Below are positions 2,289 through 57,147 of a DNA stretch of 57,147 nt, in pieces. The stretch's first letter is position 1. The number at the start of each line of letters is the position of its first letter. The notes below the pieces were generated by a model. The model had not been told where the DNA came from, did not search any database, and was given only the letters and a program-made list of their open reading frames with translations. This stretch comes from a virus. Position numbers and translations under genes: made by a program. The stretch lies in IMG/VR virus record IMGVR_UViG_3300031766_002224, positions 1 through 57,147 of that record. One strand, written 5' to 3'.

Positions 2289-3108
2289 TCGCTTCTATCT
2301 CTTCTAATAGTTGTTGTGTGTTTAGGACCACTTCGAGTGTTTCCACGTCAATCTCTTTATTCTTCGTATTATCTAGAATATTATATACTTTTTCTATCTT
2401 TTCTTTAAGCATTTCGTTGCTTTGGATATTGTTTTTTTCTTTTGAACCCTGCAACTCAGTTTTCAGCCTTCCGATTTCTTCGTTCAAAAAGGTTTTAAAC
2501 TCAACCCCGTTGTCGGAGAAGGATGAAATATAGTGCCCAAGAAGGTTTTTTTGCCCCTCATTAAGAACATCTGAATATTCAGCGTTAAATTTGCTTACGA
2601 ATGTCTTGTAAGTCAAGGAGTCGATAGGTTGCTGCACTTCCTTGACAATCTCCGCAGATGATGACATTTGGTCTACTATGTTTTCTTCTAGAATTACTCT
2701 GTCTTTTACAGGTAAAGCATCTTGAAAAATAGAATATACTGATGCGATTGTTTTGTAGTTTGGAACAAAGTTGTTGTAAACTTTGTTTGTTAGAGTTCTG
2801 TTTATTTTATTAATCAAAGCACTCTGCTCTTGAAACAATCGCTTTTTGTCCAAAGAGTCGTGTTTCTCTTTGACCTGGTACATAATTTTTTCTGCTGTGG
2901 TTTTCTCCAGGTCGCGCGTTTCATAAATCGACTTGTACAATTCAAGTTCTTCTTTTAACGCGGACTCACCATTAAAGTGGTCCCTTATGATTGATACGAT
3001 TTTGTTCTGCTTATTCTTATTATTTTTAACAACAGATTCTGTCAGCTCTCGCACCAATGCCTCATAAACAAATGCAGTGTTTCTTTTCTTATTATGCTTT
3101 AGTCTCAT
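2278..3108 (-). CDS. Helical head-region protein downstream of portal, unknown function
   Basis: A 276-residue, highly charged and mostly helical protein beginning M-R-L-K-H-N-K-K-R-N-T-A-F. Its start lies inside the last codons of the portal gene (17-base overlap), with a GAGGGA ribosome site, so it is translationally coupled to portal. Heptad-like runs of Leu, Ile, Lys and Glu occur near residues 215-275, consistent with coiled coil. A scaffold or prohead core role would fit both the context and the composition, since T4 places its scaffold genes here, but no sequence match to gp22 is apparent. No enzymatic motif is visible. Confidence 0.75.
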   Translation of the reverse strand: MRLKHNKKRNTAFVYEALVRELTESVVKNNKNKQNKIVSIIRDHFNGESALKEELELYKSIYETRDLEKTTAEKIMYQVKEKHDSLDKKRLFQEQSALINKINRTLTNKVYNNFVPNYKTIASVYSIFQDALPVKDRVILEENIVDQMSSSAEIVKEVQQPIDSLTYKTFVSKFNAEYSDVLNEGQKNLLGHYISSFSDNGVEFKTFLNEEIGRLKTELQGSKEKNNIQSNEMLKEKIEKVYNILDNTKNKEIDVETLEVVLNTQQLLEEIEANGS

Positions 3109-5092
3109 CTTTTTTTTCCCTCGCTTTTAGGCTTTTGAAGAGGTCTGCCAATTCCTTCTGTTCTTTGAGAATTTTCGACTCCTCTACTTTATAATTAGTC
3201 TTGCCCGACTCGTAAATACTCGTACCTTTTGCCAGGCCGGTCAACTCGCTATATCCTGGGTATAATTTTCTAGCTGTACCTGTTTCGGGTGTGGCCGCAC
3301 GATTCATGTTTTTCCTTCTGGGGCCTGATGACTTTCTTCTGTCGCCTCCTGGGGCTAAGTGCCTTGGGTTATACCACCCATGGGACTTATCTGTGGTCGT
3401 ACTGCCTTTGTCGTCTTCTCTTTTCCCGGGAGGGGCAGCCAATAGGCCGCCGTCTTCGCCGGCAGCATCGGTTGCAGGGGCAGCGTCACCACCAAGGTCG
3501 GGTGCATCGCCGGCTGGGGCTCCGAGTTCTGGCTCGGCACCTACGGTTCCGACTCCTCCAGGCTCACCTAAGTCGGGGGCTCCAGCATCAAGTGCGTCAG
3601 GGCCAGCGTCTAAACCTGCAGTCATGGCTGCTTGTTCTGCTTCTCCAACTGTCTCTAGAGCAGCCTCAAACTTCTTGTCGTAGAACATCTCTCTACGGTT
3701 TCGGATGAAGTCGTCGTTTGACATGCCGAATAACGTAGAAGCTAGCCATTGTTTGGAAAAGAACCCTTCAGTGGCGGCGCCGACAATATCAAATTTGGTC
3801 TTCCAGTATTCGAGCTCTTGCATCTCTGCTATCTTGGATGGGTTATTCAAGTGGCACCTGAACCCTACAAGATCTTCGTCTCTATATCCTATAGTGTAAA
3901 GGTGAATTATGCCAATCTTCTCTATTTCTGAGATGATTGACCTCTGAAGCCTTTGTATCGTTCTTGCGAACCTGACGTCTTTCTGTGCCAAGGTTGTTTT
4001 GTCTTCTGAGGAGTTCTCTCCATCGGAGGAAATATAAGCTGATGGAACTTTGAGTGCGGAAAATAGTTTATCTCTAAGATACTTTACGTCTTCTATATCA
4101 CCGGTGTATTTCCCTCCAGCTACAGACTCAATCTTTGTTGAGTTATTTCCTCTAACTGGAATAAAATAATCTTCCTCTATAGATAAAGGGTTATAGCGAA
4201 GGTCAACTCTGCCGGAATCAGCATCGACTACCTGGTTCCTCTTCATTTGTGTCATTACTTTTTGCATATATTGTTCAACGTCTTGGGGCGGAATGTTACC
4301 GACGTCGATATAGAAGGCTCTTCTTTCTGGTGAGCGCACGATACGATAAGCCATCATTGCGTCTTCGATTAGAGTGAGCTGTCTCCAGATTCGGCGAGAA
4401 GGTTCTAAAACAGATGTTCCATATGGATTGTATTTGTCTTGCCCTAAAACCCGAAAGTGACCAACTTGCCAATTTTCAAAAGTCAGGCCTGCCGAGTTCC
4501 ACTGATATTGTATGTAGTTTGGGTTTGTCGTGTCTTCTCCCTCTAGTCTCTCTACCTCTCTCGTGGGCAGTCCGATGACGGAAGTTATTCCTAGCTTGTC
4601 GTCGACGTCGAGGTACAAAAAGAAGTCACCATACTTGCACATTGTTCGACACCATGAAAACAGGTTGTGTTCAATGTTCAGGACATTTGCGTATAGCGAC
4701 TCCAAGATAGCTTTGATTTCTTCGTTGTCACATTCGACACTCAACATGGGTGTTAGCGCTGAATATGTAGTCATCTCATCCGCATAAATGTCTAGAGCTG
4801 ATGCAATCTCTGGCGTGTACTCCATCTGGTCGAAGTCTACATACCTCTCTGCCCTTTGCTGAGAAGCCATATATTGCGCTTGCAGATTGTCGTAAGGGTT
4901 ATACGCGGTCTTCTTAAAGTCGCGGCCTGAGGCGGAGCTGAACTTGTTTGCGTATTTGTCTAAATCTATTCTTCTCAGTCGGTGACTGTTCTGGGTCCTA
5001 TATTGCGTTAGTGGTCCAGACAGAAGTTTTGTCAATCTTCTGAATAATATACTTTGCGGGTTTCTTGTATTGTTTTTCGTTTTGTTTGCCAT
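3092..5092 (-). CDS. gp20: Portal vertex protein, T4 gp20-like
   Basis: A 666-residue portal protein; twelve copies form the DNA entry and exit ring at one capsid vertex and dock the terminase. The T4 gp20 signature is clear around residues 248-270: A-Y-R-I-V-R-S-P-E-R-R, then F-Y-I-D-V-G-N-I-P. E-E-D-Y-F-I-P-V-R and K-V-P-x-A-Y-I in the following 100 residues also match. The protein is longer than T4 gp20 (524 residues) because of a C-terminal extension. Residues about 484-557 are a low-complexity Ala/Gly/Asp/Pro tract, and a conserved-looking helical tail follows (K-L-Y-P-G-Y-S-E-L-T-G). The terminase gene ends 5 bases upstream and an AAAGGA ribosome site precedes the ATG. Confidence 0.95.
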   Translation of the reverse strand: MANKTKNNTRNPQSILFRRLTKLLSGPLTQYRTQNSHRLRRIDLDKYANKFSSASGRDFKKTAYNPYDNLQAQYMASQQRAERYVDFDQMEYTPEIASALDIYADEMTTYSALTPMLSVECDNEEIKAILESLYANVLNIEHNLFSWCRTMCKYGDFFLYLDVDDKLGITSVIGLPTREVERLEGEDTTNPNYIQYQWNSAGLTFENWQVGHFRVLGQDKYNPYGTSVLEPSRRIWRQLTLIEDAMMAYRIVRSPERRAFYIDVGNIPPQDVEQYMQKVMTQMKRNQVVDADSGRVDLRYNPLSIEEDYFIPVRGNNSTKIESVAGGKYTGDIEDVKYLRDKLFSALKVPSAYISSDGENSSEDKTTLAQKDVRFARTIQRLQRSIISEIEKIGIIHLYTIGYRDEDLVGFRCHLNNPSKIAEMQELEYWKTKFDIVGAATEGFFSKQWLASTLFGMSNDDFIRNRREMFYDKKFEAALETVGEAEQAAMTAGLDAGPDALDAGAPDLGEPGGVGTVGAEPELGAPAGDAPDLGGDAAPATDAAGEDGGLLAAPPGKREDDKGSTTTDKSHGWYNPRHLAPGGDRRKSSGPRRKNMNRAATPETGTARKLYPGYSELTGLAKGTSIYESGKTNYKVEESKILKEQKELADLFKSLKAREKKDETKA

Positions 5093-5097
5093 GCTAT

Positions 5098-6684
5098 TTA
5101 TCCTTTAAACAACCACGGAAAGTCTTGATGTGCTTGTGTTTGTTTGTTAAATTGTTCTTTCATTTTCATATTTTTTGTACCAATCATACCATTTATCCTC
5201 GTATCGAGTTCGTTGGTGTTTTTCGTTATCGAACCAATAAACGCTTTTGCATATTCAGCGTCTCTTTGGTTTGCAGACAGGGCAGTGTCTCTCACCCAGC
5301 ATCCCACAGCAAAAGACATAATTAAGTCATCATTATATGATCTCATCGCTTCGGCTCTTCCATTGTTCCAGACAAAAGTCTTCATTTCAGCTAAAAGCCT
5401 GGAAGAATATATCTTAATTAGATTGTTTCTAATGAATTCTTCCATCTTTGCTACGATTAAGGGGCGTGTTTTGGATGTGGTTGTAAACCCAGCAACGGCG
5501 TTTGACATTTGGTCTGCTTGATATTCTTCCACAAACTCATGAGTTGACTTAATTGAGTGATATAAGTTAGGATACCTCATCTCTTTTAATTTGTCAAGCA
5601 CTGCGTAACCTACTGAGTTGTTTTCTACTACCAGGAGGCCGTTGCCATACTCTTGACCTATATCGAAAAGTACTCTTGAAAATATATCAGGTGTAACTTT
5701 TCCTTGATACTCTGCCACTAGTTCCATGTTCTCTATATTGAACACATGGCAAACTGAATAGTCCTTACCATCACCTCTTGCAACGTCTGCAGATATTAGG
5801 TAAGAGCTTTCCGGATGGCGTTCTTCCCAAATCCACAAGTTCCTGTCGAATCCCGTTCTATGTTTTGGTTCTTTGACCATATTCAGATATACCTCTATGT
5901 CTTCCGATCCAAACACCGTCTCTCCGGACATGTTAAAGTTACACTCAAGCTCTTGGGCTATTTCTCTTCTCGACATGTTCCTAGTTTCTTTTTCGAACCA
6001 CTCTTGGTTTCTGTCAGGGTGAACTTGCCACGGTAACATTGTCGGAAAGAAATCGTTTGTCTTATTGTCTGCTTCTGAGTATATCTTGTGAAACCAATTG
6101 CCCACTCCATTTGGGGTCGATAATGCGATGCAGCGACCACCAGTAGATAATGTAGGGTATAGACCCATCCACAAGTCATCTAAGCCTTCTACGTGCGCTG
6201 CTTCGTCTATTACGAGCAGAGACAAGGCTTCCGAGCGGCCGGCATCTCCGGATGTTGATGAGGCTTTAATCTGTGAACCATTAGAAAGAACAAAGGAAGT
6301 TCTATTATCTATGTCTACTGTCGAAATTCTCAACCATTCTGGCAATGCTTTGATAATCGCCTTCACCTTCTTCACTAGGTTAGCGGCCGTATTGAATTTG
6401 GTTGCAATAACGAGTACGTTTTTTTCTCGATGGAACATCATCAGCCACGCAACATACGCAGCAGTTATGGTTGAGATTCCTAGCTGGCGCGCTTTGAGTA
6501 TAACGTTGAACCTGTGGTCTTCGAAGTCCTCCAGGAGCTTTGATTGGAAATCATAAAGATGAAAAGGGATTAATCCCTTTTGAGGGTGTGTAATCTTTGC
6601 GTATGTGTGGATAAAATATTCAGGCTTCTTGCCACAGCGGACAATCTCCTTCATTATTTCTTGTTTGGTAAGTTTTATCGCCAC
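5098..6684 (-). CDS. gp17: Terminase large subunit, T4 gp17-like
   Basis: A 528-residue packaging motor and headful nuclease. The N-terminal ATPase has the variant Walker A K-A-R-Q-L-G-I-S (residues 64-71) and Walker B L-L-V-I-D-E (156-161), followed by the coupling motif S-T-P (189-191). The C-terminal RNase H-like nuclease shows three acidic residues in the expected order: Asp300 in S-A-D-V-A-R-G, Glu354 in V-V-E-N-N and Asp452/453 in N-D-D-L-I-M. The start is GTG at 6684 with AGAGG five bases upstream. The upstream 164-residue gene ends 9 bases before it. The T4 protein is 610 residues, so this is a shorter family member. No small terminase subunit was recognised in the window. Confidence 0.95.
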   Translation of the reverse strand: MAIKLTKQEIMKEIVRCGKKPEYFIHTYAKITHPQKGLIPFHLYDFQSKLLEDFEDHRFNVILKARQLGISTITAAYVAWLMMFHREKNVLVIATKFNTAANLVKKVKAIIKALPEWLRISTVDIDNRTSFVLSNGSQIKASSTSGDAGRSEALSLLVIDEAAHVEGLDDLWMGLYPTLSTGGRCIALSTPNGVGNWFHKIYSEADNKTNDFFPTMLPWQVHPDRNQEWFEKETRNMSRREIAQELECNFNMSGETVFGSEDIEVYLNMVKEPKHRTGFDRNLWIWEERHPESSYLISADVARGDGKDYSVCHVFNIENMELVAEYQGKVTPDIFSRVLFDIGQEYGNGLLVVENNSVGYAVLDKLKEMRYPNLYHSIKSTHEFVEEYQADQMSNAVAGFTTTSKTRPLIVAKMEEFIRNNLIKIYSSRLLAEMKTFVWNNGRAEAMRSYNDDLIMSFAVGCWVRDTALSANQRDAEYAKAFIGSITKNTNELDTRINGMIGTKNMKMKEQFNKQTQAHQDFPWLFKG

Positions 6685-44500: not shown

Positions 44501-47500
44501 GTTCCTCACAAAAAGGAATTGCTAACTTGTCAATCAGGGCTCTTGCGAATGAGCATGCGATCCGAATAAGTATTTGTTTTATATTGTCTTGTAAGAACCG
44601 CCACACCGCAGCATACCAGCCCAGGACAGGTATCCTTGGAAATGGAGGTAAATAAAAACTTGGAAGTTTTATATCAAAGCCAGGCAATCGAATACATTTC
44701 AGCCAGTCGCAAAGCAAAGAAGCTAAATCGAGCTTATCAAAAAACTCTTTATATAAATCTTCCATCGTACACATGTCACCCATAGCTCTAAGTGCTGCTT
44801 CTTCGTCAAATGTATCATTAAAAGAACTTTCCCAATTCTTGGCAGAAGTATCCCAGTATTCGTTTGCTGGGTCGACAAATTCATCCTTTCCTATCTTGCT
44901 CCAAGCTGGCCCTATAGAGCTAGCGGGTGGTGTCTTTACTTGTAGACCAGTTGTGAATGTAGCAACATAAGAAGCTGCTTGTCTTTTTTCAAAATTAAAT
45001 CCCAAATCTTTACATGAGCCGCGGCCATCGTCGAAAACAGATATTATTTCGCCCGGGCGGTCTGTAAGCAAACCTGTCATTTCTAATATGTTACTTATAT
45101 AATTAACAGTACGCGGCCTTGAGAGTGCCTTTGATTTAAAAGCCTCTTGCACCGGTGCTGGGTCCCAGTTTGGTGTTGTAGATGGAGTCTCTACTAGGTT
45201 AAAAGCTCCAGATGTTACATCTCCTATATTCTTTCCGCCGGCTGTTGGCCACCATTTTCCATCGATTGACGTATCATTTTCTAAAAATATAGCGCATTCC
45301 ACAATCTTTTTGCCGTACTTTGGGCCCATGTATGTTTTAGTGCCGGTTTTAGGCTCTACATACTCAAATCCAATTATAATATTAGTTTTACTCGGGTTTT
45401 GCTCCATGTAGGTTGACACTGCTGGACCCCAATAGTCCTTGGCGGATAAAAGAAGGACATCTACAAATTCCGCTAGGAAAGTTTTCATTAGCCCAGATTC
45501 TTCTTTTGCGTTGAACTTGCTTCCCTTTTTAAAGACTATACCTTCTGAACTTATTATTTCTGCTGACTCCTGCAAGTCCTTTACTATAATGTTGATTCTT
45601 TCCGTCATTTCTTCGAGAGTTATTTGCAAAGCAGAAAATTGGGGCCGGCCGTTGGCGTCTTTCTTTTTTAGCTCTTTGTTTGAATCGTTCGCGATATTAT
45701 TAAAATATTCGGCATCCGTGTCGAACAAATCCAACTTCTGAAAGACATTGGTTCCCACGTCTCCAAGTTTACTTAGAACCATCCTAGTGTATTCGTGGTC
45801 TGACGCTCCGTTTAAATCCATGCCTAGTATAGACTTTAGCGCGCTGTTTAAATCAAATGGGCCTTGCTTGCCTAGGTCGATTGTTGGAGACTGGCCAACG
45901 GAGGCCCGGGCAGTTTCAGACCTTTGGGCTTCCTCTCTCAGTTTTCTAACAATTTCTCTTCGCTTTTTTCTAGCGTGAACCCTGTATTCTTCTTTCGTCC
46001 TGATAGCTTCTGATATATCTCCAGGTGCGCAGTCATCTTGTGTTGATTCAGATTGAGCTTCTTCAGGCTCTGCATTTGGAGTTGCTATTGGAATGTCGAG
46101 GCCATCTTTTATAAGATCTAATTTGCGCGTGCTCAGTTCGAATAATGCCCTATAGTGTTGTCCTGGACGCATTGATGGGGTCTTGAACTCAATGAACTTC
46201 ACCATCGGAGGTTCATTGCCCCAGCCGTCTACGTCTCTCCATGTTTGAACTGTTGGACCTTCTTCACTTTGGGCAGCCCTAGCGGCGCCTGGTTCAGTGG
46301 ACAACACCCAAAAACTATTTATCTTGTCTTCAGCTGTTATATCCTCTTCGTATTCCTCGGCAAGAGCGTCAATCTTTTGCTGAAGTACTTGGAGTCTTAG
46401 TGTCTCGTTAGTAGAACTATTAAAATTGCCTATCAAGGACATTTGTTCTTCGGTTTCTGTTATCTTTCTTTTTATTTGAACAAATCTTTCTATGTTTTTC
46501 TTAAGTTCTTTTGAGCTTCCAATAGGGTAAAACCCTATGTGTTCCGGAGGCTTCGGACCATCAGAGCCAAACAAAGTGGTGCTTACGAATTCATCCATAG
46601 TTGGCAAGTACCACACGTTTGTTTTTGAATTCTTCTTTACAACTTCGTCGAGCGCTTTATCTTCCATGTCCTTAATTACTTCTTCATCGTATGAAGGCAA
46701 AGGACCCTCGGCAGAAAGAAGGAACTCGGTTTCCAAATAATACCCTGTTTTGTCTTGACTTATATAGAAAGGTTCTGTTGCAACAAACGGGTCGGGATAA
46801 AAAACTCTCCGCAAGTTATCGGTAGCTTGTTGCGGTGTTTGCATATTTTGAGCTAGCTGGTTAGAATTATAATTCTCAATTGTGGATTTTGAAAAACTAT
46901 AAAGTACACTAATGTTTTCTCTCAAAATGTTGTATCGTATTGAGCCATATGGAAATATTGAAGAATTACCATCGAGCCACTGTGTATTACTAGACACTAT
47001 TTCCAAGTATGCACCTAGTTCATCTAGGTTGTTATATTTTATGGAGTCTTGCACAAAACCGGAATTAAGAAGGTCTTCCTTCGTCTGGCCTAAGCGCCCG
47101 GAATCAAAGTCTTCTATTAATACTTCCGGTAAAACGTCCACAACAGTCTCTCGCGCGGTGGCGAAGAAGTGTGCACTCGAATGTACATAACCTGTATTTG
47201 ATATAGTTGTATGTGGAAGCCAACCGTGCATTATAGCTAGAGTGGCCTCTCCTAGATTTCCAAGCTCCTGATTGAACAACACTTCCATAGCATCCAGCTG
47301 TTGTAAAATAGACCTACTATACTCTTCTTGTTTCTCTACTAATATAGAGGAATATCCCTGACTCGTTGCATCTAATAGGTTTTTAACTCCATACTTCTCA
47401 AACAAGTAACATAAGATTAGAAACTGATTCTGTGACTGATACATAGTCAGAGCGCGCTGCATTTTGGAATCAAAAGTAGCAGCCTGTTCTACGGAAATAG

Positions 47501-47732
47501 GGCGACCAGATAGACAATCAAACCACCCGTTGTGATCTAAAGGTATTGTCACGTCTCGTACTTGGCCGTCCGGTGTGTTGTGTATTAGTCCTGTAGTGTC
47601 TTGTATTACGCCCAGGGCGAACTTAATCGCAAGGATATCTTTACCCACTTCTCCGAACATGCGGCGAGTATATGAGATGCTTCCATCCGGGGTATTTATC
47701 TCTATTTTAAATGGTGGGGCCTGACCGGTCAT
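38538..47732 (-). CDS. Giant 3064-residue tail/baseplate protein, peptidoglycan-binding-like N-terminus
   Basis: An uninterrupted 9.2-kb frame upstream of gp25. Residues about 30-105 resemble a peptidoglycan-binding-like three-helix unit: G-K-D-I-L-A-I-K-F-A-L-G-V, N-G-W-F-D, then F-D-S-K-M-Q-R-A-L-T-M-Y-Q. Residues about 1000-1072 form a striking Pro- and aromatic-rich, amphipathic stretch (L-P-S-F-Y-L-P-P-F-P-R-I-P-V-L-G-W) followed by helices with I-L-I-R-I-A-C-S-F-A-R. Most of the rest is helical and acidic. It is far longer than any T4 baseplate or tape-measure protein. Candidate roles are a huge hub or wedge scaffold, or a tape measure with baseplate domains. An AGAGGA site precedes the ATG. 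Confidence 0.85.
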   Translation of the reverse strand: MTGQAPPFKIEINTPDGSISYTRRMFGEVGKDILAIKFALGVIQDTTGLIHNTPDGQVRDVTIPLDHNGWFDCLSGRPISVEQAATFDSKMQRALTMYQSQNQFLILCYLFEKYGVKNLLDATSQGYSSILVEKQEEYSRSILQQLDAMEVLFNQELGNLGEATLAIMHGWLPHTTISNTGYVHSSAHFFATARETVVDVLPEVLIEDFDSGRLGQTKEDLLNSGFVQDSIKYNNLDELGAYLEIVSSNTQWLDGNSSIFPYGSIRYNILRENISVLYSFSKSTIENYNSNQLAQNMQTPQQATDNLRRVFYPDPFVATEPFYISQDKTGYYLETEFLLSAEGPLPSYDEEVIKDMEDKALDEVVKKNSKTNVWYLPTMDEFVSTTLFGSDGPKPPEHIGFYPIGSSKELKKNIERFVQIKRKITETEEQMSLIGNFNSSTNETLRLQVLQQKIDALAEEYEEDITAEDKINSFWVLSTEPGAARAAQSEEGPTVQTWRDVDGWGNEPPMVKFIEFKTPSMRPGQHYRALFELSTRKLDLIKDGLDIPIATPNAEPEEAQSESTQDDCAPGDISEAIRTKEEYRVHARKKRREIVRKLREEAQRSETARASVGQSPTIDLGKQGPFDLNSALKSILGMDLNGASDHEYTRMVLSKLGDVGTNVFQKLDLFDTDAEYFNNIANDSNKELKKKDANGRPQFSALQITLEEMTERINIIVKDLQESAEIISSEGIVFKKGSKFNAKEESGLMKTFLAEFVDVLLLSAKDYWGPAVSTYMEQNPSKTNIIIGFEYVEPKTGTKTYMGPKYGKKIVECAIFLENDTSIDGKWWPTAGGKNIGDVTSGAFNLVETPSTTPNWDPAPVQEAFKSKALSRPRTVNYISNILEMTGLLTDRPGEIISVFDDGRGSCKDLGFNFEKRQAASYVATFTTGLQVKTPPASSIGPAWSKIGKDEFVDPANEYWDTSAKNWESSFNDTFDEEAALRAMGDMCTMEDLYKEFFDKLDLASLLCDWLKCIRLPGFDIKLPSFYLPPFPRIPVLGWYAAVWRFLQDNIKQILIRIACSFARALIDKLAIPFCEEQLRDFVAAGSLTGDTAFAPALAASLVDIGIAPERKESAKVFFEDVANITTGQELCRLLSGKPLDNASMLMVQRLLEKNGLEGDLVNESDILNYFDLIGTLLPYGICEELQKSTTLATPKSCVEISDYLSDIRNRLQTGDSTLSDEEIDKVVQMAKDEMNKKQDDLRALSGNNVGNLIPDAYRPGDPSAIVSDYPDFLKKELDNTIKNCFSGAKDSYVSALDAYVPAMSLNLPTEPEAGTDQYSDSQSLKFEASLTQLAAYVASLENQTPAFNQYTQQVLGQGPEEITQDRAQELINKGGELYKRAKKLKELIEFHKQCFVSSGRPQDGRRKARPGAGKLYIDGPPPPAQVPDENGQIRLVAEQVHTIGWGTDGEEFTRTYRPLETLVPGSEYEDFLSERGFAWEFHGLSYVLFHVITGALRGYWQLHRDNSSFDYTNLPTVRHVPVFIQQLEVAAGLRGNAFMGTDEESPSTAVVQSLKFIIDNYRDEMITAAQEADDEYQRRRNSGDPDSLGQEEEPAWLTKLFELILDSGRFQPDLSSEDQERYQTDGLPYLSFQGYYDEHKDNIWQKDPFQFSNEEDLDYSTLTLEKQYQYAELFREYRITNLDELLEDIDSLIREFEIKNNETGDWDPIPRLGVNNPYSPNSVTEQEFIDYFIAPEKESGVPYDSEVRSAKFLDYIIKISDPTKDIFSGALMKLNTPVDVNWYNAMLLYTLFETEEVPFKEVEGKTHHVFAKNRVTRSPKDFVMACHRPSGGPLDALVDRELTTVWRFNAEGAPRMEAQGGSYRGVLNQLERGAAGYEFFTTGVESISYEEYYESITDPDSRGEFVLSAIPLERYTGMVALRGFSDSDYQVFQQIVSEISSRFSDDDSPVACAEIREEFKHIYEEFLSSRDGSNSEDYEWNIYQRKSLETNDSTEGTPYHITSSLAAAAKAMERHFSLDINLSRDYEIRDTALTHFPQSARFRLLYSQALAEIEYFRPYMPSVGDGGPRSGGFKLNPWLAASLDNPLVPESLRLKSTLEVFETIQHAITNSIDNRGSYVREGRKERILSAVTDAEGIHHFESVATILDQRGPNHPGLLKLINERLTGLTDTIIETFRNRPSIVTPKHLLMLDKVMNNTEILKSSGTAITELSLQLGLYHPKIEYIEYPSKTGLERYDITISSDFHLGQPNDTKPKTFKFCEPLPLSMTRHNRPDPGHLPVGQNEEKYYSKRESFMRLAIQSIQGGLGYRAPRGTDNLKKKLYEDLFLEKQQNIMSSLLDEIRDSRLFDKDYAEELDRRISAKPSYNESTGCVTNRYGLVEASSLSFDKVILEETHAEIMKETAKPENSTVNRDFDDPGPIDIAMQSISLKAFVRVCILDTMLKGGLAYSVWDIEPIISDPLFIEYVIEHVKGELESSSFLRSKWRRIVEKTVGITNPNSALRRLIEQEIIKFPDFSKQAFNFDRRDVDFYDWYTEEKIGGVQELTSDIEFFQYRRELEDNNSTALPFVSPQDSHFFLEDYVRISGEILDPDLLSELEDARRGLETEHPDFSRAYFAIENPEEKEIVFPTWAFDSLIKVLSGHVETVRYRNIIEQSEFHHGIRLISKFYDEDLVEYLKNNYQEDIHENSRIQKSFLVAEQNEAGPLGLTRSADYSAAASFREIVHLPLVSEERVLDLETCESIFSGRTGTGVIHHRKYMVSRLKAREEYRHVFDHIFPIRRYMTINSIFATAVLSGYNGLPTLFSPTKAAIAFLGMVASTPMSQRDQLIPLSAADFRNIMKNNWPTHPESADCFDFPLPSAEFFIKFIKDLWKLITELPSILFRGVANVIDPAYKEMRQHYLNCDIKNLSWEGLSVETLEDSLVNGLYLPGGPDAPRGKNNGKYAPIVHTGAIDMLGSLAHLLAWNPKPLGITLAKTISYAFSGNLPMLDLSMAFAIPCLDVSEAWAPKPEGKYDIGQFGRYGHPLSPFTVLALSTPQLESDKNLKRPNCSKIKPAEYTECDEE

Positions 47733-51249: not shown

Positions 51250-52197
51250 TTACCATTTAAAATTTTGTTTATAAAAATTAACTATTTTACAAATCTGTTC
51301 ATCAAAGTTTTTGATTGGTGACCAACCAATCGATCTTATCTTTTGGTCGTCTAGAGAATATCTAACATCTTGACCTGGTCTTTTAAAATCTAAGTTTACG
51401 TGATTTTTCCAATCCATTGTACTGTCGAACGCATTGATAATCTTCTTTACTGTTAATATGTTTTCCTGTTCGAATCCACCAGAAATATTGTATATTTCGT
51501 TTTTCACGCCGCTTTTCATAATTTCCAAAACTGCGTTTGAAGTATCCTCTACATGTAGCCAATTTCTAACGGGAGTGCCTTCATCGTGAAGTCTTATTTT
51601 TTTATTTCTTTTCAATAATTTGACAACCAGTGGTACTAATTTTTCTGGATATTGATAATTCCCGTAATTATTTGTGGGCCTTAGTATCACATACTCTATT
51701 CCATATGTTCGCGCCCAAGATGTAATCATTAGGTCGGCAGCTGCTTTCGAAGCCGAATATGGATTACTAGGGTTCATAAGGTCGTTTTCTTTGTGGCTAC
51801 CCGATGCGATATCACCATACACCTCATCTGTACTAAAATGAAGCAACACTGGCCTTGAACAGACATTACTTGGTTTTTTCCTTATCAAATCAAGAATGTT
51901 TTGAATTCCAAGTATATTTGTCTTTGTAAATTCTTTACTGTCCTGGATACTGTTCCCTACGTGTGTTTCTGCGGCGGTATTGATTATGTAATCACAGTCA
52001 GGTATCGAATCTATTTCACAAATATCTTCTCTTTTAAAAGTAAAATTTTTGTCCTCTAGGAATTCGGGTAACAGTTCGTTGTTTGCCGCGTAGGTACATT
52101 TATCTATTCCCAGAACCTTATATCCCAGATTCAAGCAGTCCCTTGTTATCTGAGAGCCTATAAACCCTAAGCACCCTGTTATCACTACAATTTTCAA
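51250..52197 (-). CDS. dTDP-glucose 4,6-dehydratase-like SDR (RmlB family)
   Basis: A 315-residue extended short-chain dehydrogenase. I start it at TTG 52197 (L-K-I-V-V-I-T-G), one base after the cupin stop and six bases after GGAG, because the longer frame adds 20 residues with no fold. It has the NAD-binding G-C-L-G-F-I-G-S (residues 8-15), F-S-T-D-E-V-Y-G (121-128), catalytic Tyr147-x3-Lys151 (Y-S-A-S-K), and L-R-P-T-N-N-Y-G-N-Y-Q-Y-P. The Thr-Asp-Glu triple marks 4,6-dehydratases, which make 4-keto-6-deoxy nucleotide sugars. R-P-G-Q-D-V-R-Y also fits RmlB. It closes the sugar operon and may use a nucleotide sugar made elsewhere; substrate is unproven. Confidence 0.88.
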   Translation of the reverse strand: MKIVVITGCLGFIGSQITRDCLNLGYKVLGIDKCTYAANNELLPEFLEDKNFTFKREDICEIDSIPDCDYIINTAAETHVGNSIQDSKEFTKTNILGIQNILDLIRKKPSNVCSRPVLLHFSTDEVYGDIASGSHKENDLMNPSNPYSASKAAADLMITSWARTYGIEYVILRPTNNYGNYQYPEKLVPLVVKLLKRNKKIRLHDEGTPVRNWLHVEDTSNAVLEIMKSGVKNEIYNISGGFEQENILTVKKIINAFDSTMDWKNHVNLDFKRPGQDVRYSLDDQKIRSIGWSPIKNFDEQICKIVNFYKQNFKW

Positions 52198-52198
52198 C

Positions 52199-52555
52199 TC
52201 AATCTCCCCGTTGGATTCTATGTGAGTCGGAGTCAAAATGTTGAGTTGAAAATTCAAACAATTCTGTATCTTCTATAGCTTCCATTTGATGCTTCAATCC
52301 CCTGTATACATGGAAGTTTTCTCCCCTCGATAGGACAACTTCCTTTGCGGTGGCGATATCTTCGCTATCTGAGTACCTCACTTTAATCTTTCCGGATTGT
52401 ACGTAGAAGACTTCATCTTTTAGCTCATGGTAGTGCCAGGAACATTTCCTGCCCTTTACAAAGTATAGAAGTTTTCCGCAATATTCTTCGTTGTTTACGA
52501 TCCATTTTTCAAACCCCCAACCTTTTGGGACAAATTTAATTGGTAAAGAATTCAC
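52199..52555 (-). CDS. Cupin-domain protein, probable sugar-operon enzyme
   Basis: A 118-residue single-domain cupin. The metal-binding motif is C-S-W-H-Y-H-E-L-K-D-E-V-F-Y-V-Q-S-G with two His and a Glu, followed by a second motif including H-V-Y-R-G-L-K-H. W-G-F-E-K-W-I-V at residues 13-20 resembles the N-terminus of mannose-6-phosphate isomerase/GMP type-II cupins and small sugar isomerases. It is not an RmlC epimerase by sequence. It overlaps the HAD gene by 20 bases and is followed at once by the dehydratase, so it belongs to the sugar pathway; the reaction is not determined. Confidence 0.8.
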   Translation of the reverse strand: MNSLPIKFVPKGWGFEKWIVNNEEYCGKLLYFVKGRKCSWHYHELKDEVFYVQSGKIKVRYSDSEDIATAKEVVLSRGENFHVYRGLKHQMEAIEDTELFEFSTQHFDSDSHRIQRGD

Positions 52556-52856
52556 TATCTTTAACTCCTTTGTCGTCTACATATACATCACCAGAGGGTT
52601 TTCCCAAAACTAATCTGTGGAATTTTAAGCCCCACTTTGTTAGTTGGGTCAAAGTTAAGTCATAGAACATGTTAACCGCTTCCGCCTGGTTGTCATTTGT
52701 TCTGCCCATTCCCCTTGCGGTGAAGAAAACTATATGGTTTCCGTCATCATAAAGTTTGTTAATCTTTTCTATTCGAGACAGAAAAGGGCTAGCTTTTTCA
52801 TAATCTCCGTTTGTTAGGGAGCATATAGTGCCGTCGATGTCAAATATGTATTTCAT
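52536..52856 (-). CDS. Small HAD-family phosphatase
   Basis: A 106-residue minimal HAD hydrolase. Motif I is F-D-I-D-G-T with nucleophile Asp6 and general acid Asp8; motif II is F-F-T-A-R-G (Thr/Ser role); the Lys and acidic motifs are visible in L-G-K-P-S-G-D-V-Y-V-D-D-K. No cap domain is present. Relatives are found in capsule and polysaccharide gene sets, where they remove phosphate from sugar phosphates. It sits between nucleotidyltransferase and cupin genes, overlapping both (17 and 20 bases). A role like GmhB, removing phosphate from a sugar bisphosphate made by the PfkB-type kinase, would fit, though GmhB is larger. Confidence 0.85.
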   Translation of the reverse strand: MKYIFDIDGTICSLTNGDYEKASPFLSRIEKINKLYDDGNHIVFFTARGMGRTNDNQAEAVNMFYDLTLTQLTKWGLKFHRLVLGKPSGDVYVDDKGVKDSEFFTN

Positions 52857-53256
52857 TGTTTAAAATTCTAGTAGTTGAATGTTCTCCTATTCTATCAAAA
52901 AAAACAACTTTTTTTACTAGTTTTTTTCCAACTACTGTTTTTTTTTCCCAATCCGACCCTATGACCATCATGGATATATCGTTTTCCACTAGAAGTTTTT
53001 CCAACTCTCGGTTCGTGGAGTACGTCACCACACTGTCTACTGAAGATAGTTCTTCCAAAAAAGACTTTCTATCCTGAACGTTGTTGAATGGCCTTGTATC
53101 GCCCTTTGAGGCTCTTACCCTCTCATCGGTGTCAATACCCACTACGAGCTTGTCACCAAGAGACCTAGCGTATTGTAAAAGCCTTATATGACCTATGTGA
53201 AGGATATCGAAGCATCCATTCACCCAGACGTTAGTAGTTTGCATTCCACGGCTCAT
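52840..53256 (-). CDS. Nucleotidyltransferase, HldE C-terminal/cytidylyltransferase-like
   Basis: A 138-residue nucleotidyltransferase: V-N-G-C-F-D-I-L-H-I-G-H (residues 12-23) is the HxGH motif that binds the nucleotide, followed by D-T-D-E-R-V-R, K-G-x-x-R-P-F-N, I-G-S-D-W near 100, and the late S-T-T-R-I-L. These features match the C-terminal domain of HldE/RfaE, which makes ADP-heptose, and glycerol-3-phosphate cytidylyltransferase. Together with the separate PfkB-type kinase at 54437-55183 it gives the two halves of HldE as unlinked proteins. It overlaps the epimerase gene by 26 bases; an internal ATG at residue 5 could shorten it. Confidence 0.88.
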   Translation of the reverse strand: MSRGMQTTNVWVNGCFDILHIGHIRLLQYARSLGDKLVVGIDTDERVRASKGDTRPFNNVQDRKSFLEELSSVDSVVTYSTNRELEKLLVENDISMMVIGSDWEKKTVVGKKLVKKVVFFDRIGEHSTTRILNNEIHI

Positions 53257-54157
53257 CTATCAAGTTGTATACTTTTATCATCTGTTTTATACCATCATCT
53301 AGGTTATACTTGCATGCAAATCCCGTATTGTATAATTTTTGGCTGCTGACTGTATAATCTCTCTTGTCTGGATCAGTTGTAAATTCTGCTTTTATTATCT
53401 CTAGTGGTGTATGTTTTTTTATGGTCTTTGCCAACTGTAGCTTATTCATATTAACTTCGTCATTTCCTAAGTTGAACGTTTCATTTCTATAAGTAGACCA
53501 ATCATCTATCGACCGAGTGAAGACCCTACAGACATCCCAAATATGCACGTAATTTCTCATAAACTCACACTCGTATAACACTATAACCCGGTCTCTAATA
53601 GCTCTCAGTACAAAGTTGTTTACCAACAGGTCCGTACGAACACGAGTTGATGGACCAAACACTGTCGCTAGTCTGAATGTAGTACAATTCTCTGTCTCCC
53701 TAAACCTAGTTTCTGCGTCTACTTTAGTTTTCCCATACAAGGATATTGGATTTAGCGGGTCTAATTCTGTTATTATTTTCCCTTTTTCTCCGTTGCCGTA
53801 TCCAGAGTTTGTACAAGGGTATATGACCATTTGATCTTTCGATTTGTTCTTACAGATCCAGTCATTTGACATATAATTTACATCTATAGCCTCCTGCGGT
53901 CTTTGGTCACACAACGGGAAACCTACAAGGGCTGCCAGGGGCACAACAACATCACAAAACTTTAAGTATTTCTCTAGGACTTTTTCATCCCTGACATCTG
54001 CCTTTTCAAAATTAAAGTTCGGGTGACTGATGTATCTAAGGAGCGATTTGTTGTCGTATAAAAGACTGTCCACTACATATATTTCATGGTCCCTAATTAG
54101 GAAGTCAATTAATTCACTTCCGATATAGCCCGCGCCGCCGGTAATTAATATTTTCAT
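53231..54157 (-). CDS. NAD-dependent epimerase/dehydratase (extended SDR)
   Basis: A 308-residue SDR. I start it at ATG 54157, which overlaps the upstream stop (TAATG) and begins M-K-I-L-I-T-G-G-A-G-Y-I-G-S; the 21 residues upstream in the longer frame are outside the fold. Catalytic Tyr141 and Lys145 are in L-Y-G-K-T-K. P-L-A-A-L-V-G-F-P-L-C-D (residues 73-84) and C-T-N-S-G-Y-G-N resemble epimerases of the GalE/WcaG group and HldD only loosely. It probably changes the stereochemistry of an activated sugar; substrate is not readable from the sequence. It is in the middle of the operon between the Mpo1-like and nucleotidyltransferase genes. Confidence 0.88.
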   Translation of the reverse strand: MKILITGGAGYIGSELIDFLIRDHEIYVVDSLLYDNKSLLRYISHPNFNFEKADVRDEKVLEKYLKFCDVVVPLAALVGFPLCDQRPQEAIDVNYMSNDWICKNKSKDQMVIYPCTNSGYGNGEKGKIITELDPLNPISLYGKTKVDAETRFRETENCTTFRLATVFGPSTRVRTDLLVNNFVLRAIRDRVIVLYECEFMRNYVHIWDVCRVFTRSIDDWSTYRNETFNLGNDEVNMNKLQLAKTIKKHTPLEIIKAEFTTDPDKRDYTVSSQKLYNTGFACKYNLDDGIKQMIKVYNLIDEPWNANY

Positions 54158-54447
54158 TATATTTTCACTCTCCCAATTATTATATCTTTTAACATTATCC
54201 AGTCGCAAGCCTTTGCCCATAAAGGTTTCGTAAATGCCGCGGGCTTGTTCTTCTCGAAGAAGAAATGTCCGGACCAGGCAAACGGATAAATGACAAAAGG
54301 AATTAAGGGTATCAAGACCCAGCTAGATGTCTGCAGAATATAAACCATTGTTGCGATGGTAGCTAACTGTCCCAGTACATGCAACCTACGGTTCCATTCA
54401 TTCTGGTGCAGCAATAAATAATGTTTGTAGTATTCTTCAAATTTCAT
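54157..54447 (-). CDS. Mpo1-like (DUF962) membrane protein
   Basis: A 96-residue membrane protein of the Mpo1/DUF962 family. Conserved features are the N-terminal Y-Y-K-H-Y with H14-Q-N-E-W-N-R-R-L-H23, two hydrophobic segments (about residues 25-38 and 43-57), and A-W-S-G-H61-F-F-F-E-K-N-K-P-A with the trailing K-P-L-W-A and C-D-W-I-M-L. In yeast Mpo1 is an iron-dependent dioxygenase acting in alpha-oxidation of 2-hydroxy fatty acids, and the conserved His residues bind the metal. Finding it inside a phage sugar operon, overlapping its neighbours, is unexpected; it may alter a host lipid, such as one that carries the sugar. Confidence 0.88.
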   Translation of the reverse strand: MKFEEYYKHYLLLHQNEWNRRLHVLGQLATIATMVYILQTSSWVLIPLIPFVIYPFAWSGHFFFEKNKPAAFTKPLWAKACDWIMLKDIIIGRVKI

Positions 54448-55183
54448 TTATAGTGTTTACTCCTTTTAATTGAACTACTTGAGTAGCACAGGTGTTTGCA
54501 TAGATAATAGACTTATCAATATCTTTTGTTTTTAAATAGTTGACGCACAGGCCGGCCATGAAAGTATCTCCGGCGCCACAAAGATCTTTAATTTCCACTT
54601 TATCCACTGAGTACATCTTTTCTCCAAGGCGACTCCCAGAGGAACCCAAGGTGACAATTACCTTATTTTTGGCCCATGAAGATTTTTGTATAAATTTTTG
54701 AGATGCGGCGTATTCGTTCTTGTTTATCTTGATATAAGTGCACTCTTTGCAATATTCTCCAATGGTTTTTTTCGTGTCGATAAAGACAAGGTCGTGGTTT
54801 TCGCAAATGAACCTTATATCGTCCTCCGTCAGAAAACCCTTGTTGTAATCTGAGATTATTATCAAGTCAAACTCGCAGATAAACTCTTTTGTTAAATCTG
54901 AAACCCTCTCGACGCTTCCTTCACCCGAGTCGACCCTAAGAAACATATGATTCGTTTCTTCGTGTACATACCTTTTTTTCTCAATGTTTATGCTGTTTGT
55001 TTTGAGTATAGCAGGTATACCCATAGATACTATATTTTGGTAAACGTTTCCTGCCATGCCCAAATTTCTTTTTTCATAGTTCGGTATGAAAACTGGCACT
55101 GGGGCATCTGGAGCGAGACGTTCACACCGGCCGTAAACGTGAACGTCGCGACAGCCGTCGCCTATGACGAGTATTTTACTCAC
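54437..55183 (-). CDS. PfkB-family sugar kinase, HldE N-terminal-like
   Basis: A 248-residue ribokinase-fold kinase. It has the N-terminal G-D-G-x-x-D and A-P-D-A-P-V-P-V-F (residues 24-32) typical of HldE/RfaE heptose-7-phosphate kinase, N-L-G-M-A-G-N-V near 40, D-Y-N-K-G near 112, and the C-terminal anion hole and catalytic base G203-A-G-D206-T-F. It is shorter than the usual 310-320 residues, mainly through reduced lid and central regions. HldE kinases phosphorylate heptose 7-phosphate at C1. With the nucleotidyltransferase downstream this points to an ADP- or other NDP-sugar. It overlaps both neighbours by 8 to 11 bases. Confidence 0.9.
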   Translation of the reverse strand: MSKILVIGDGCRDVHVYGRCERLAPDAPVPVFIPNYEKRNLGMAGNVYQNIVSMGIPAILKTNSINIEKKRYVHEETNHMFLRVDSGEGSVERVSDLTKEFICEFDLIIISDYNKGFLTEDDIRFICENHDLVFIDTKKTIGEYCKECTYIKINKNEYAASQKFIQKSSWAKNKVIVTLGSSGSRLGEKMYSVDKVEIKDLCGAGDTFMAGLCVNYLKTKDIDKSIIYANTCATQVVQLKGVNTINEI

Positions 55184-55586
55184 CCCAGCTAATGTCCCAA
55201 TCTTTAAATTCCGCGGCTAAACAGTCGATCTTATAATCCTTGCGGCCGCCGGCTTGTTCTTGAATCTTATTCTTGGCGGTGTTTCTAATTCCGTTCAAGC
55301 CATGAGTTAGTTCAAGATTGTTTCCGTCTCTTATGCCTTTTCGATAGTTTGATTCATTGTGCCATATGTGCAGATTCATCTGAGACAAAACAACTATTGC
55401 CCTGACCGTGTCTGCATCCAAAGACACCTCCTTGCCTTTCAAGATTACATCGATATCGTGCAATATTGCAGAGATTTCCTTTGCGTACTCTTGCTTGTGT
55501 TCTACTATGAATACTTCCTTTAATTGAACTATTGATAGTCTATCTATCAGCTCTGACAATGTTGGTAGGTATTTTCTTTTACTCAT
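55176..55586 (-). CDS. Unknown helical protein in sugar operon
   Basis: A 136-residue mostly helical protein. Visible conserved-looking elements are P-T-L-S-E-L-I-D-R-L-S-I, H-I-W-H-N-E-S-N-Y-R near residue 75, T-H-G-L-N-G-I-R-N-T-A-K-N-K-I near 95, and D-Y-K-I-D-C-L-A-A-E-F-K-D-W. The H-x-W-H-N-E-S and N-x-I-R-N motifs recall DUF4254-type proteins that accompany glycan genes, but I am not sure of that link. It overlaps the DegT-fold gene and the kinase gene by 8 bases each, so it is part of the operon. No reaction can be assigned. Confidence 0.75.
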   Translation of the reverse strand: MSKRKYLPTLSELIDRLSIVQLKEVFIVEHKQEYAKEISAILHDIDVILKGKEVSLDADTVRAIVVLSQMNLHIWHNESNYRKGIRDGNNLELTHGLNGIRNTAKNKIQEQAGGRKDYKIDCLAAEFKDWDISWGE

Positions 55587-56727
55587 TGTTGTTTTCCTTG
55601 CATTTTTCTAAAGCTTCTTTTATTGCTTTACATATTCTTTCCATGTTCTCTCCTGTTAAATATTGATGGCATCCAATATGGATTCCGTTATCTCCAACCC
55701 ATTCTGCTTCAGGGAATTGTCCTAACTTGTGGCCCATGTCTCCAAAGGCTATCTGTTGCGTCGGAATGCATCCAAAATTTCTCTTGTGGTGTATCCTGTA
55801 TTTGTCAAAAGTGTCCTTGACAATTTCAATGTCGCCCTCTTTCTTACAAGTGACGCTAAAGCCGTGTGGGCAATTTATATTACCCTCATCTTCCTCTGAA
55901 AACCAGGCAATATCTTCGAAGCCGTTAGCTGCTTTCCTCATCTCTTTCATGAACGCATGTCTTGTCCAAAATGTATCCCAGAAGACACCTATGGCTTCAA
56001 GACCGATGGATGCCTCAAGGTCGTTCATTTTAGAATTCAAGCCAGACCTCTTGTGTTCGAAATAGACAGAATTATATGGACGGCCGTGGGATCTCGTTGA
56101 GAATAGAAGCTTTCCAATATCTGGGTCGTTGGACGATATCATTCCCCCTTCACCGGAACAAACTAGGTGCGCGACGTAAAAACTGTATATGGACATATCT
56201 CCCCAGTGACCGACAAGTTTATCCTTGAATTTTGCACCATGTGCCTCGCATGCGTCTTCTATAACAATCAGATTGTGCCTCTCGGCAATCTCGCAGATAA
56301 CATCCATCTCCGCCATTCTTCCCATTGTGTGAACCACTTGGATCGCCACGGTGTTTTCATTAATCGCCTCTTCAATCTTAGACTCATCAATGTTGAGAGT
56401 TTCGCGTTTTACATCGACAAATTTAGGCACCAGGCCTGAGGCTCTGACGGCATTTGCGGTTGCGATGAATGACAACGCGGGAACTATAACTTCGCTTACC
56501 CCTCTCTTCGCACCCTTTAGATCATACAAGGCAAAGCAAGAGTTTATGCATCCGTCGGTACCGGAACTGACTGCGGTGCTGTTATCGTAATCAAACAGTT
56601 GATTCCACTTGTCCTCAAGCTCCCTTACCTTTGGTCCGCCCGAAGCCCAGTTCGTGTCGCATACATGCATCAGGTTTTTTCTAGCTACCTCTCCAATTCT
56701 TAGTTCTCCAAATTCTATCTTTTCCAT
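55579..56727 (-). CDS. DegT/DnrJ-fold PLP enzyme with Lys-to-His change, ColD/E1-like
   Basis: A 382-residue fold-type I PLP protein. The PLP-pyridine aspartate is Asp158 (V-I-E-D-A-C) and the family motif is Y-S-F-Y-V-A-H187 followed by S-G-E-G-G-M-I. Normal aminotransferases have Lys where His187 stands. The same substitution defines the sugar 3-dehydratases ColD (GDP-colitose pathway) and E1/RfbH (CDP-3,6-dideoxyhexose pathway), which keep PLP or PMP but remove the C3 hydroxyl rather than aminating. The ATG overlaps the upstream stop (TAATG). With an RmlB-like dehydratase in the same operon, a 3-deoxy sugar is a reasonable product. RfbH-type iron-sulfur cysteines were not seen, so ColD is the closer analogue. 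Confidence 0.88.
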   Translation of the reverse strand: MEKIEFGELRIGEVARKNLMHVCDTNWASGGPKVRELEDKWNQLFDYDNSTAVSSGTDGCINSCFALYDLKGAKRGVSEVIVPALSFIATANAVRASGLVPKFVDVKRETLNIDESKIEEAINENTVAIQVVHTMGRMAEMDVICEIAERHNLIVIEDACEAHGAKFKDKLVGHWGDMSIYSFYVAHLVCSGEGGMISSNDPDIGKLLFSTRSHGRPYNSVYFEHKRSGLNSKMNDLEASIGLEAIGVFWDTFWTRHAFMKEMRKAANGFEDIAWFSEEDEGNINCPHGFSVTCKKEGDIEIVKDTFDKYRIHHKRNFGCIPTQQIAFGDMGHKLGQFPEAEWVGDNGIHIGCHQYLTGENMERICKAIKEALEKCKENNNE

Positions 56728-57147
56728 TAATATAAATCTCCATGTTCGATTATCAGTGTTGATCTTTCACTGCTCAGTGCTTTTTCGTATGCTGGCAGAA
56801 TTTGTTCAGGATATAAAAGCTCAACAATATCTATGTTTGTGCAGGAACTCCTGAAGGCCTCTGTAAAATTAGCTTTATGTTGGTGTCCCGGGTCTAGGGG
56901 ATACTGAGACCCTACCACTGCCTTCATTATGATTTTTGGCTTGCTCTGGCCCATAGACATTGCTTCCCACTTGTCTAAATGATTCACAATCTGATTCATT
57001 GCTAAGATGATAAAATTCATTCTAGGGTATAAGGAAACTGGTATGTAACCATCTATAGCTAAACCTAGAGCTATTCCGGCTTGGAACTCTTCTGCTACTG
57101 GTAATTCTAGCAACTTTGTTTTGTCAAAGTTTTTGACCTGATGAGTC
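56727..57147 (-). CDS. Partial TPP-enzyme subunit, pyrimidine-binding domain (E1-beta/transketolase-like)
   Basis: The frame runs off the right edge of the window, so the N-terminus is missing; about 139 codons are visible. The protein resembles the pyrimidine-binding domain of pyruvate dehydrogenase E1-beta and transketolase: L-P-V-A-E-E-F-Q-A-G-I-A-L-G-L-A with the catalytic Glu, Y-I-P-V-S-L-Y-P-R-M-N-F, and P-G-H-Q-H-K-A-N-F-T-E-A-F, then an ending like I-I-E-H-G-D-L-Y. It stops there, where a full E1-beta has another 120 or so residues of transketolase C-domain, so this subunit appears to have only the Pyr domain. A partner with the PP domain may lie just upstream outside the window. Products of this type can transfer two-carbon units. 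Confidence 0.85.
   Translation of the reverse strand, partial: THQVKNFDKTKLLELPVAEEFQAGIALGLAIDGYIPVSLYPRMNFIILAMNQIVNHLDKWEAMSMGQSKPKIIMKAVVGSQYPLDPGHQHKANFTEAFRSSCTNIDIVELLYPEQILPAYEKALSSERSTLIIEHGDLY

Follow-up and report, generated by a model that had tools for sequence, protein, structure and literature searches.

A His-type DegT enzyme encoded in a T4-like phage operon, a predicted ColD-like sugar 3-dehydratase associated with ThDP enzymes

To our knowledge, E1, ColD, and SpnQ are all the His-type relatives of the DegT aminotransferases that have been characterised, and each of them is a 3-dehydratase. The exchange of Lys for His is the key difference of these three enzymes, the His serving as catalytic base/acid, and for the wild-type proteins no outcome other than 3-dehydration is listed save a side transamination by SpnQ (PMC8987622). 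In the ColD branch of the mechanism, the reaction proceeds through hydrolysis and the recharging of the cofactor by glutamate (PMC8987622). The product of a 3-dehydrase can in turn be branched: CDP-3,6-dideoxy-4-keto-glucose is the substrate of YerE in yersiniose synthesis, and the superfamilies reported to branch keto-sugars are alpha-KADH2, transketolase, and the YerE-like decarboxylases (PMC12247030, PMC4425429).

Here, we propose that a DegT-fold gene in a virus record encodes a ColD-type PMP-dependent NDP-sugar 3-dehydratase, the product of which would then be C-branched by a neighbouring ThDP enzyme. Judged from the comparison of sequences, we regard this as the probable explanation of the locus. 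The record is 57,147 bases long (hereafter the window, meaning the whole stretch of DNA that was analysed) and carries T4-type portal, terminase large subunit, and baseplate wedge genes (Table 1). Its portal has only about 40% identity to those of cultured phages (Microcystis phage Mel-JY01, for example), and the structural region of this marine phage, T4-like but divergent, includes two giant ORFs (24455-34678, 3407 aa; 38538-47732, 3064 aa). The enzyme gene is one of ten overlapping ORFs on the same strand (51250-57147), and the stop codon of the ThDP beta gene overlaps the enzyme start in the sequence TAATG. The window beta gene is 86% identical to the intact beta gene of locus L002. Gene content and gene order are almost unchanged in both L002 and L003, where an intact ThDP alpha gene stands ahead of beta. 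Host contamination of the contig is ruled out by the terminase, portal, and baseplate genes and by the conservation of the operon in L002 and L003. The Mpo1-like gene is also present in L002, and the 136-aa DUF7164-like protein is found again in locus L153, near a ColD-like module. PADLOC returned nothing relevant.

Table 1. Positions of the features of the window, with the matches on which the assignments are based
Feature	Position	Strand	Remarks
T4-type portal and terminase large subunit	3092..6684	minus	phrog_213 and phrog_2; show the contig to be viral
RmlB-like NDP-sugar 4,6-dehydratase, catalytic STDEVYG and YSASK	51250..52257	minus	TIGR01181 305 bits, cut-off 365
Small cupin protein	52199..52555	minus	PF07883
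HAD phosphatase (capsule EcbF/BcbF-like)	52536..52856	minus	
Sugar-1-phosphate nucleotidyltransferase, HldE C-domain-like	52840..53256	minus	rfaE_dom_II 111 bits, under the cut-off of 181
SDR (epimerase/reductase type), TNSGYG replacing dehydratase TDE/TSE	53231..54220	minus	recurrent partner of the enzyme
Mpo1-like small protein in the operon	54157..54447	minus	PF06127 101 bits
PfkB kinase, HldE N-domain-like	54437..55183	minus	PF00294 62 bits; rfaE_dom_I 116 bits, under the cut-off of 345
136-aa protein, weak DUF7164	55176..55586	minus	immediately downstream of the enzyme gene in a number of phage loci
DegT-fold His-type enzyme CDS, 382 aa	55579..56727	minus	predicted PMP-dependent sugar 3-dehydratase
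Active-site motif YSFYVAHLVCSGEGG, residues 181-195	56143..56187	minus	A186, H187, and G192-G195 invariant
His187 codon CAC	56167..56169	minus	PLP lysine position; ColD H188, E1 H220
ThDP-enzyme small beta subunit (pyrimidine domain), 3' part, cut by contig end	56727..57147	minus	PF02779 just below cut-off; NF006667 1.1e-11; phrog_34187 7e-25

The product of the gene is a full-length DegT domain (PF01041, 249 bits). A sequence-only reading had picked out a motif at 56150-56190 with His at residue 187 in place of the PLP lysine; the motif (YSFYVAHLVCSGEGG) is indeed present, and the interval given for it was essentially right (56187-56143). The replacement itself is borne out by HMMER alignments, in which His187 falls without gaps on the Schiff-base Lys of the DegT aminotransferases, and by an exact column match to ColD H188 and E1 H220. 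This column was read from wild-type and mutant PDB entries (ColD H188N, 3b8x; ColD H188K, 2r0t; E1 H220K, 3bb8), and the N, K, and K of the three mutants stand opposite His187 in the printed alignments.

The relatives of the enzyme share this residue. A viral scan found 18 of them at 46-82% identity and a scan of bacterial and archaeal genomes a further 40 at 43-53%, beyond which identity falls to about 33%; the cellular relatives come from Nanoarchaeota, Pacearchaeota, Methanoperedens, Thermoplasmatota, Omnitrophota, Chloroflexota, Acidobacteriota, and others. Position 187 is His in 18/18 of the viral and 40/40 of the cellular proteins. Another 62 loci came from a second viral scan (9 family members and 53 others, the latter mostly ColD-like with an HH motif), and all 62 have His at the equivalent position. 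The lysine of the SxxxxK motif is thus replaced in every member of the family, and Lys at position 187 was seen only outside it. The nearest relative has 82% protein identity as against 72% nucleotide identity (dN 0.13, dS saturated). The invariance of His187 and this conservation rule out a sequencing error or a pseudogene as its origin.

The relationships among these enzymes were assessed in an unrooted tree of 72 rows, consisting of 24 Lys-types and 48 His-types (30 from the family and 18 others, with ColD and E1). One branch, with a support of 100/99, parts the 24 Lys-types from the 48 His-types, and with the 21 columns around H187 removed the Lys/His split is still a single change (SH-aLRT 97). 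The sampled viral family members form one clade. The simplest reading of the three well-separated groups in this unrooted tree is that the family is sister to ColD/E1. The family is a separate deep subfamily of His-type enzymes, which the sequence-only reading had missed, and we know of no characterised member of it.

That the enzyme is an ordinary DegT aminotransferase using a lysine elsewhere (e.g. K315), or else a catalytically dead relative, seems to us scarcely credible. Its nearest PDB entries by sequence are Lys aminotransferases and K315 is invariant in the family, yet ColD, E1, and most Lys-types have Arg at the latter position. The placement among ordinary aminotransferases that had been named as speaking against a dehydratase was not seen, the family lying outside the 24 sampled Lys-types of the unrooted tree and not nested in them, and the strong conservation speaks against a dead relative. 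An ordinary aminotransferase is accordingly disfavoured.

Around the substituted lysine, Asp158 and Ser182 of the PLP site are kept throughout the alignment, and Asn231 occurs in all His-types and in 21/24 Lys-types. Residue 352 is Gly in 48/48 His-types and Pro in 22/24 Lys-types; Gly352 is a marker of the His-types that lies away from the active-site motif. The family has its own variants within the motif, with L/I/V/M/Q after His187 as against H/N in the other His-types, and with C/S/V/A in place of the TT that precedes GEGG in the Lys-types and the other His-types. None of the 30 family rows has a Cys at the counterparts of C251, C253, C257, and C261, the [2Fe-2S] ligands of E1, and the enzyme scores 171.6 bits with the NCBIfam RfbH equivalog, short of the cut-off of 423. 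Membership in RfbH/E1 is ruled out by the absent iron-sulfur cysteines and by a score so far under the cut-off; with these cysteines absent, the ColD branch of the mechanism is therefore the one to be expected. The sequence-only reading had named ColD and RfbH together: its grouping of the enzyme with the ColD/E1 3-dehydratases finds support in the unrooted tree, its RfbH part does not stand, and a ColD-like 3-dehydratase appears to be the best reading of the sequence. An AlphaFold2 model (mean pLDDT 96.2, pTM 0.93) has its best structural matches in the E1 dehydrase and in GDP-perosamine synthase, tied at Z 48; a shared fold is not decisive for function.

What might the enzyme act together with? 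Neighbouring genes were counted by profile in loci of similar size, the family being represented by 55 loci (15 non-redundant viral and 40 cellular). ThDP-enzyme genes were found in 43 of these (13/15 viral, 30/40 cellular), in 1/13 of the other His-type cellular loci, and in none of the 26 Lys-type loci (43/55 vs 0/26, Fisher p about 2e-12, the kinship of loci being ignored). Among the further viral loci, they are present in 7/9 family members and in 35/53 other His-type loci, although many of the 53 contigs are close kin and do not amount to 35 independent cases. The ThDP genes near the family, which the sequence-only reading had also passed over, fall into three kinds: split PDH-E1-like, split transketolase, or acetolactate-synthase-like. 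ThDP enzymes of the same sort accompany the ColD-like enzymes of phages. Our main reason to infer branching is that these correspond to the three superfamilies reported to branch keto-sugars, a ThDP carboligase gene thus lying beside an enzyme that would itself produce a keto-sugar.

The association could also be read differently: the enzyme would be a His-type 3-dehydratase for a colitose-like sugar without a branch (3-deoxy or 3,6-dideoxy), and the role of the ThDP enzyme would lie in another pathway of the same glycan island. Consistent with this, the annotated stretches of phages S-CAM7 and ACG-2014f show gmd, Fcl-like, and ColD-like genes but lack a ThDP gene, and none was found in 12/55 family loci, most of which, however, are represented by short stretches. 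We nevertheless hold this reading to be unlikely, as the ThDP gene in the window is directly upstream of the enzyme gene and overlaps it, and as three unrelated kinds of ThDP enzyme recur across archaea, bacteria, and phages while being found in 0/26 Lys-type loci.

Two observations on the ThDP genes may be added. In L002 (4844-6001), and also in L029 and L059, the ThDP enzyme is a miniature (about 205 plus 175 aa) that consists of the pyrophosphate and pyrimidine domains and lacks the C-terminal domain; this form occurs in phages and in some archaea or bacteria. In L071 (1926-4643), a PanB homologue scoring above its NCBIfam cut-off adjoins an acetolactate-synthase-like ThDP enzyme. PanB-type chemistry yields 4-hydroxy-2-oxo acids, the type of donor reported for the branching enzyme ErwE, and by analogy the L071 homologue might supply the donor of the branch. 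L071, a phage contig from the single-cell genome Prochlorococcus AG-409-P03, is identical to locus L011, and part of the family may therefore infect cyanobacteria.

Other genes also accompany the family. An SDR with TNSGYG is found in 32/55 family loci vs 0/39 controls; this motif was counted in place of a broad SDR profile, which also matches 16/26 Lys-type loci and is uninformative. The SDR subfamily so defined (as against the TDE/TSE of the 4,6-dehydratases) recurs with the His-type enzyme in the window and in cellular loci L021-L059. B12 radical-SAM proteins are encoded in 32/55 family loci vs 3/39. The 4,6-dehydratase motif, on the other hand, is present in only 8/55 family loci, plus the window, and the idea of a 4,6-dehydratase as a constant companion of the enzyme fails; in the window, the RmlB-like 4,6-dehydratase is a possible source of the 4-keto substrate. 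Heptose genes (GmhA, GmhB, HddA-like, and HddC-like) are frequent in the cellular clusters, and the window has HldE-like halves.

The heptose-type genes, the few 4,6-dehydratases nearby, and the divergent surroundings of the active site would all be compatible with a His-type PMP enzyme of another outcome, be it C3 epimerisation, dehydration at another carbon, or dehydration of a heptose-derived substrate. We think this decidedly improbable, given that the characterised His-type relatives known to us are all 3-dehydratases. For the wild-type enzymes, the side transamination by SpnQ is the one other outcome listed (PMC8987622).

Returning to the explanation that we favour, a ColD-type 3-dehydration followed by branching, we infer the use of PMP and the following order of steps. 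PMP would form a Schiff base with the keto group of an NDP-sugar, most likely at C4, and His187, standing in for the Schiff-base lysine, would remove a proton from PMP C4' and expel the C3 hydroxyl. Hydrolysis would then release a 3-deoxy-4-keto sugar and glutamate would recharge the cofactor, with neither an iron-sulfur cluster nor a separate reductase being used. The ketone would probably be the acceptor for the adjoining ThDP enzyme, which, by attaching a short acyl group at the ketone carbon, would give a C-branched 3-deoxysugar for a surface glycan. Several points weigh against this explanation: the lost TT pair, the lack of H/N after the His, the low count of 4,6-dehydratases, the invariant K315, the Lys aminotransferases as nearest PDB sequences, the unrooted state of the tree, and the shortness of the phage ThDP subunits.

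A 3-deoxy-sugar step had been thought unusual for a phage, a view that is contradicted by the ColD-like enzymes of S-CAM7 and ACG-2014f and by about 50 more viral contigs (L119-L171) with other His-type DegT enzymes, mostly ColD-like. In these two cultured Synechococcus phages, gmd, an Fcl-like gene, and the gene for a ColD-like HH enzyme stand side by side, and the S-CAM7 records are annotated as putative CDP-4-keto-6-deoxy-D-glucose-3-dehydrase. Within 8 kb, L144 (2096-10004) encodes an RmlC-like protein, ThDP alpha and beta subunits, a ColD-like enzyme (E-value 9e-62 to ColD), two SDRs of the Fcl-like type, and a gmd-like 4,6-dehydratase. In the open-access papers that were searched, phage-encoded sugars of the branched or 3-deoxy kind are not reported. 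As a prediction from genes, then, a 3-deoxysugar step in a phage has precedents; the novelty lies in the separate His-type subfamily, in its distribution across archaea and uncultured bacteria, and in its tie to ThDP carboligases.

In a wider sense, we see an even chance that at least two phage lineages carry complete modules for C-branched 3-deoxysugars, each with a His-type DegT 3-dehydratase (of this subfamily or ColD-like) and a dedicated ThDP carboligase, which for this subfamily is often the miniature of two domains, and that the same subfamily, with the TNSGYG SDR and B12 radical-SAM proteins, forms a branched-sugar system across archaea and many uncultured bacteria. If this is true, a fourth and widespread group would be added to the three characterised His-type DegT enzymes, and there would be a testable prediction of a sugar made by phages themselves. 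Branched 3-deoxysugars are found in bacterial LPS; by making such a sugar, a phage may change the surface of its host so as to hinder superinfection, or may use it to decorate the phage particle. Carboligases for the synthesis of tertiary alcohols might also be sought in the family.

How, finally, does the phage enzyme compare with the known systems? The ColD-like proteins of S-CAM7 and ACG-2014f are likewise phage-encoded His-type DegT enzymes in sugar clusters, but they are of another subfamily, with 24.6% and about 29% identity to the enzyme and with the HH motif, and next to them the annotated stretch has gmd and Fcl-like genes but lacks a ThDP gene. YerE and alpha-KADH2 (AviB1/AviB2, KbDH) belong to the same superfamilies as the ThDP genes that adjoin the enzyme, whereas the phage ThDP pair is small (about 205 plus 175 aa), is without the C-terminal domain, and is not known to branch sugars. 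GDP-perosamine synthase and other DegT aminotransferases (3bn1, 7b0m) share the fold, Asp158, Ser182, and the best PDB sequence scores, but they retain the Schiff-base Lys, residue 352 is mostly Pro in them, and the family is not nested among those sampled.

The two dehydratases are closer in kind. E1/RfbH (CDP-4-keto-6-deoxyglucose 3-dehydrase; 3bcx, 3bb8) resembles the phage enzyme in having H220 at the lysine position, in its fold (Z 48), and in the SFYxAH motif, and differs in its four [2Fe-2S] cysteines and their loop, which the phage enzyme is missing. ColD (GDP-4-keto-6-deoxy-D-mannose 3-dehydratase; 2gms, 3b8x, 2r0t) agrees with the phage enzyme in the DegT fold, the His that replaces the lysine, the lack of iron-sulfur cysteines, the Gly at residue 352, and a similar length (390 vs 382 aa). 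The identity of the two in structural alignment is about 25%, however; the phage enzyme is without the HH pair, has C/S instead of T before EGG, and has KRNFGCIPTQ in the C-terminal substrate loop where ColD has RPIVTGNF, and, in a further difference from ColD, its neighbours include a ThDP enzyme and the TNSGYG SDR.
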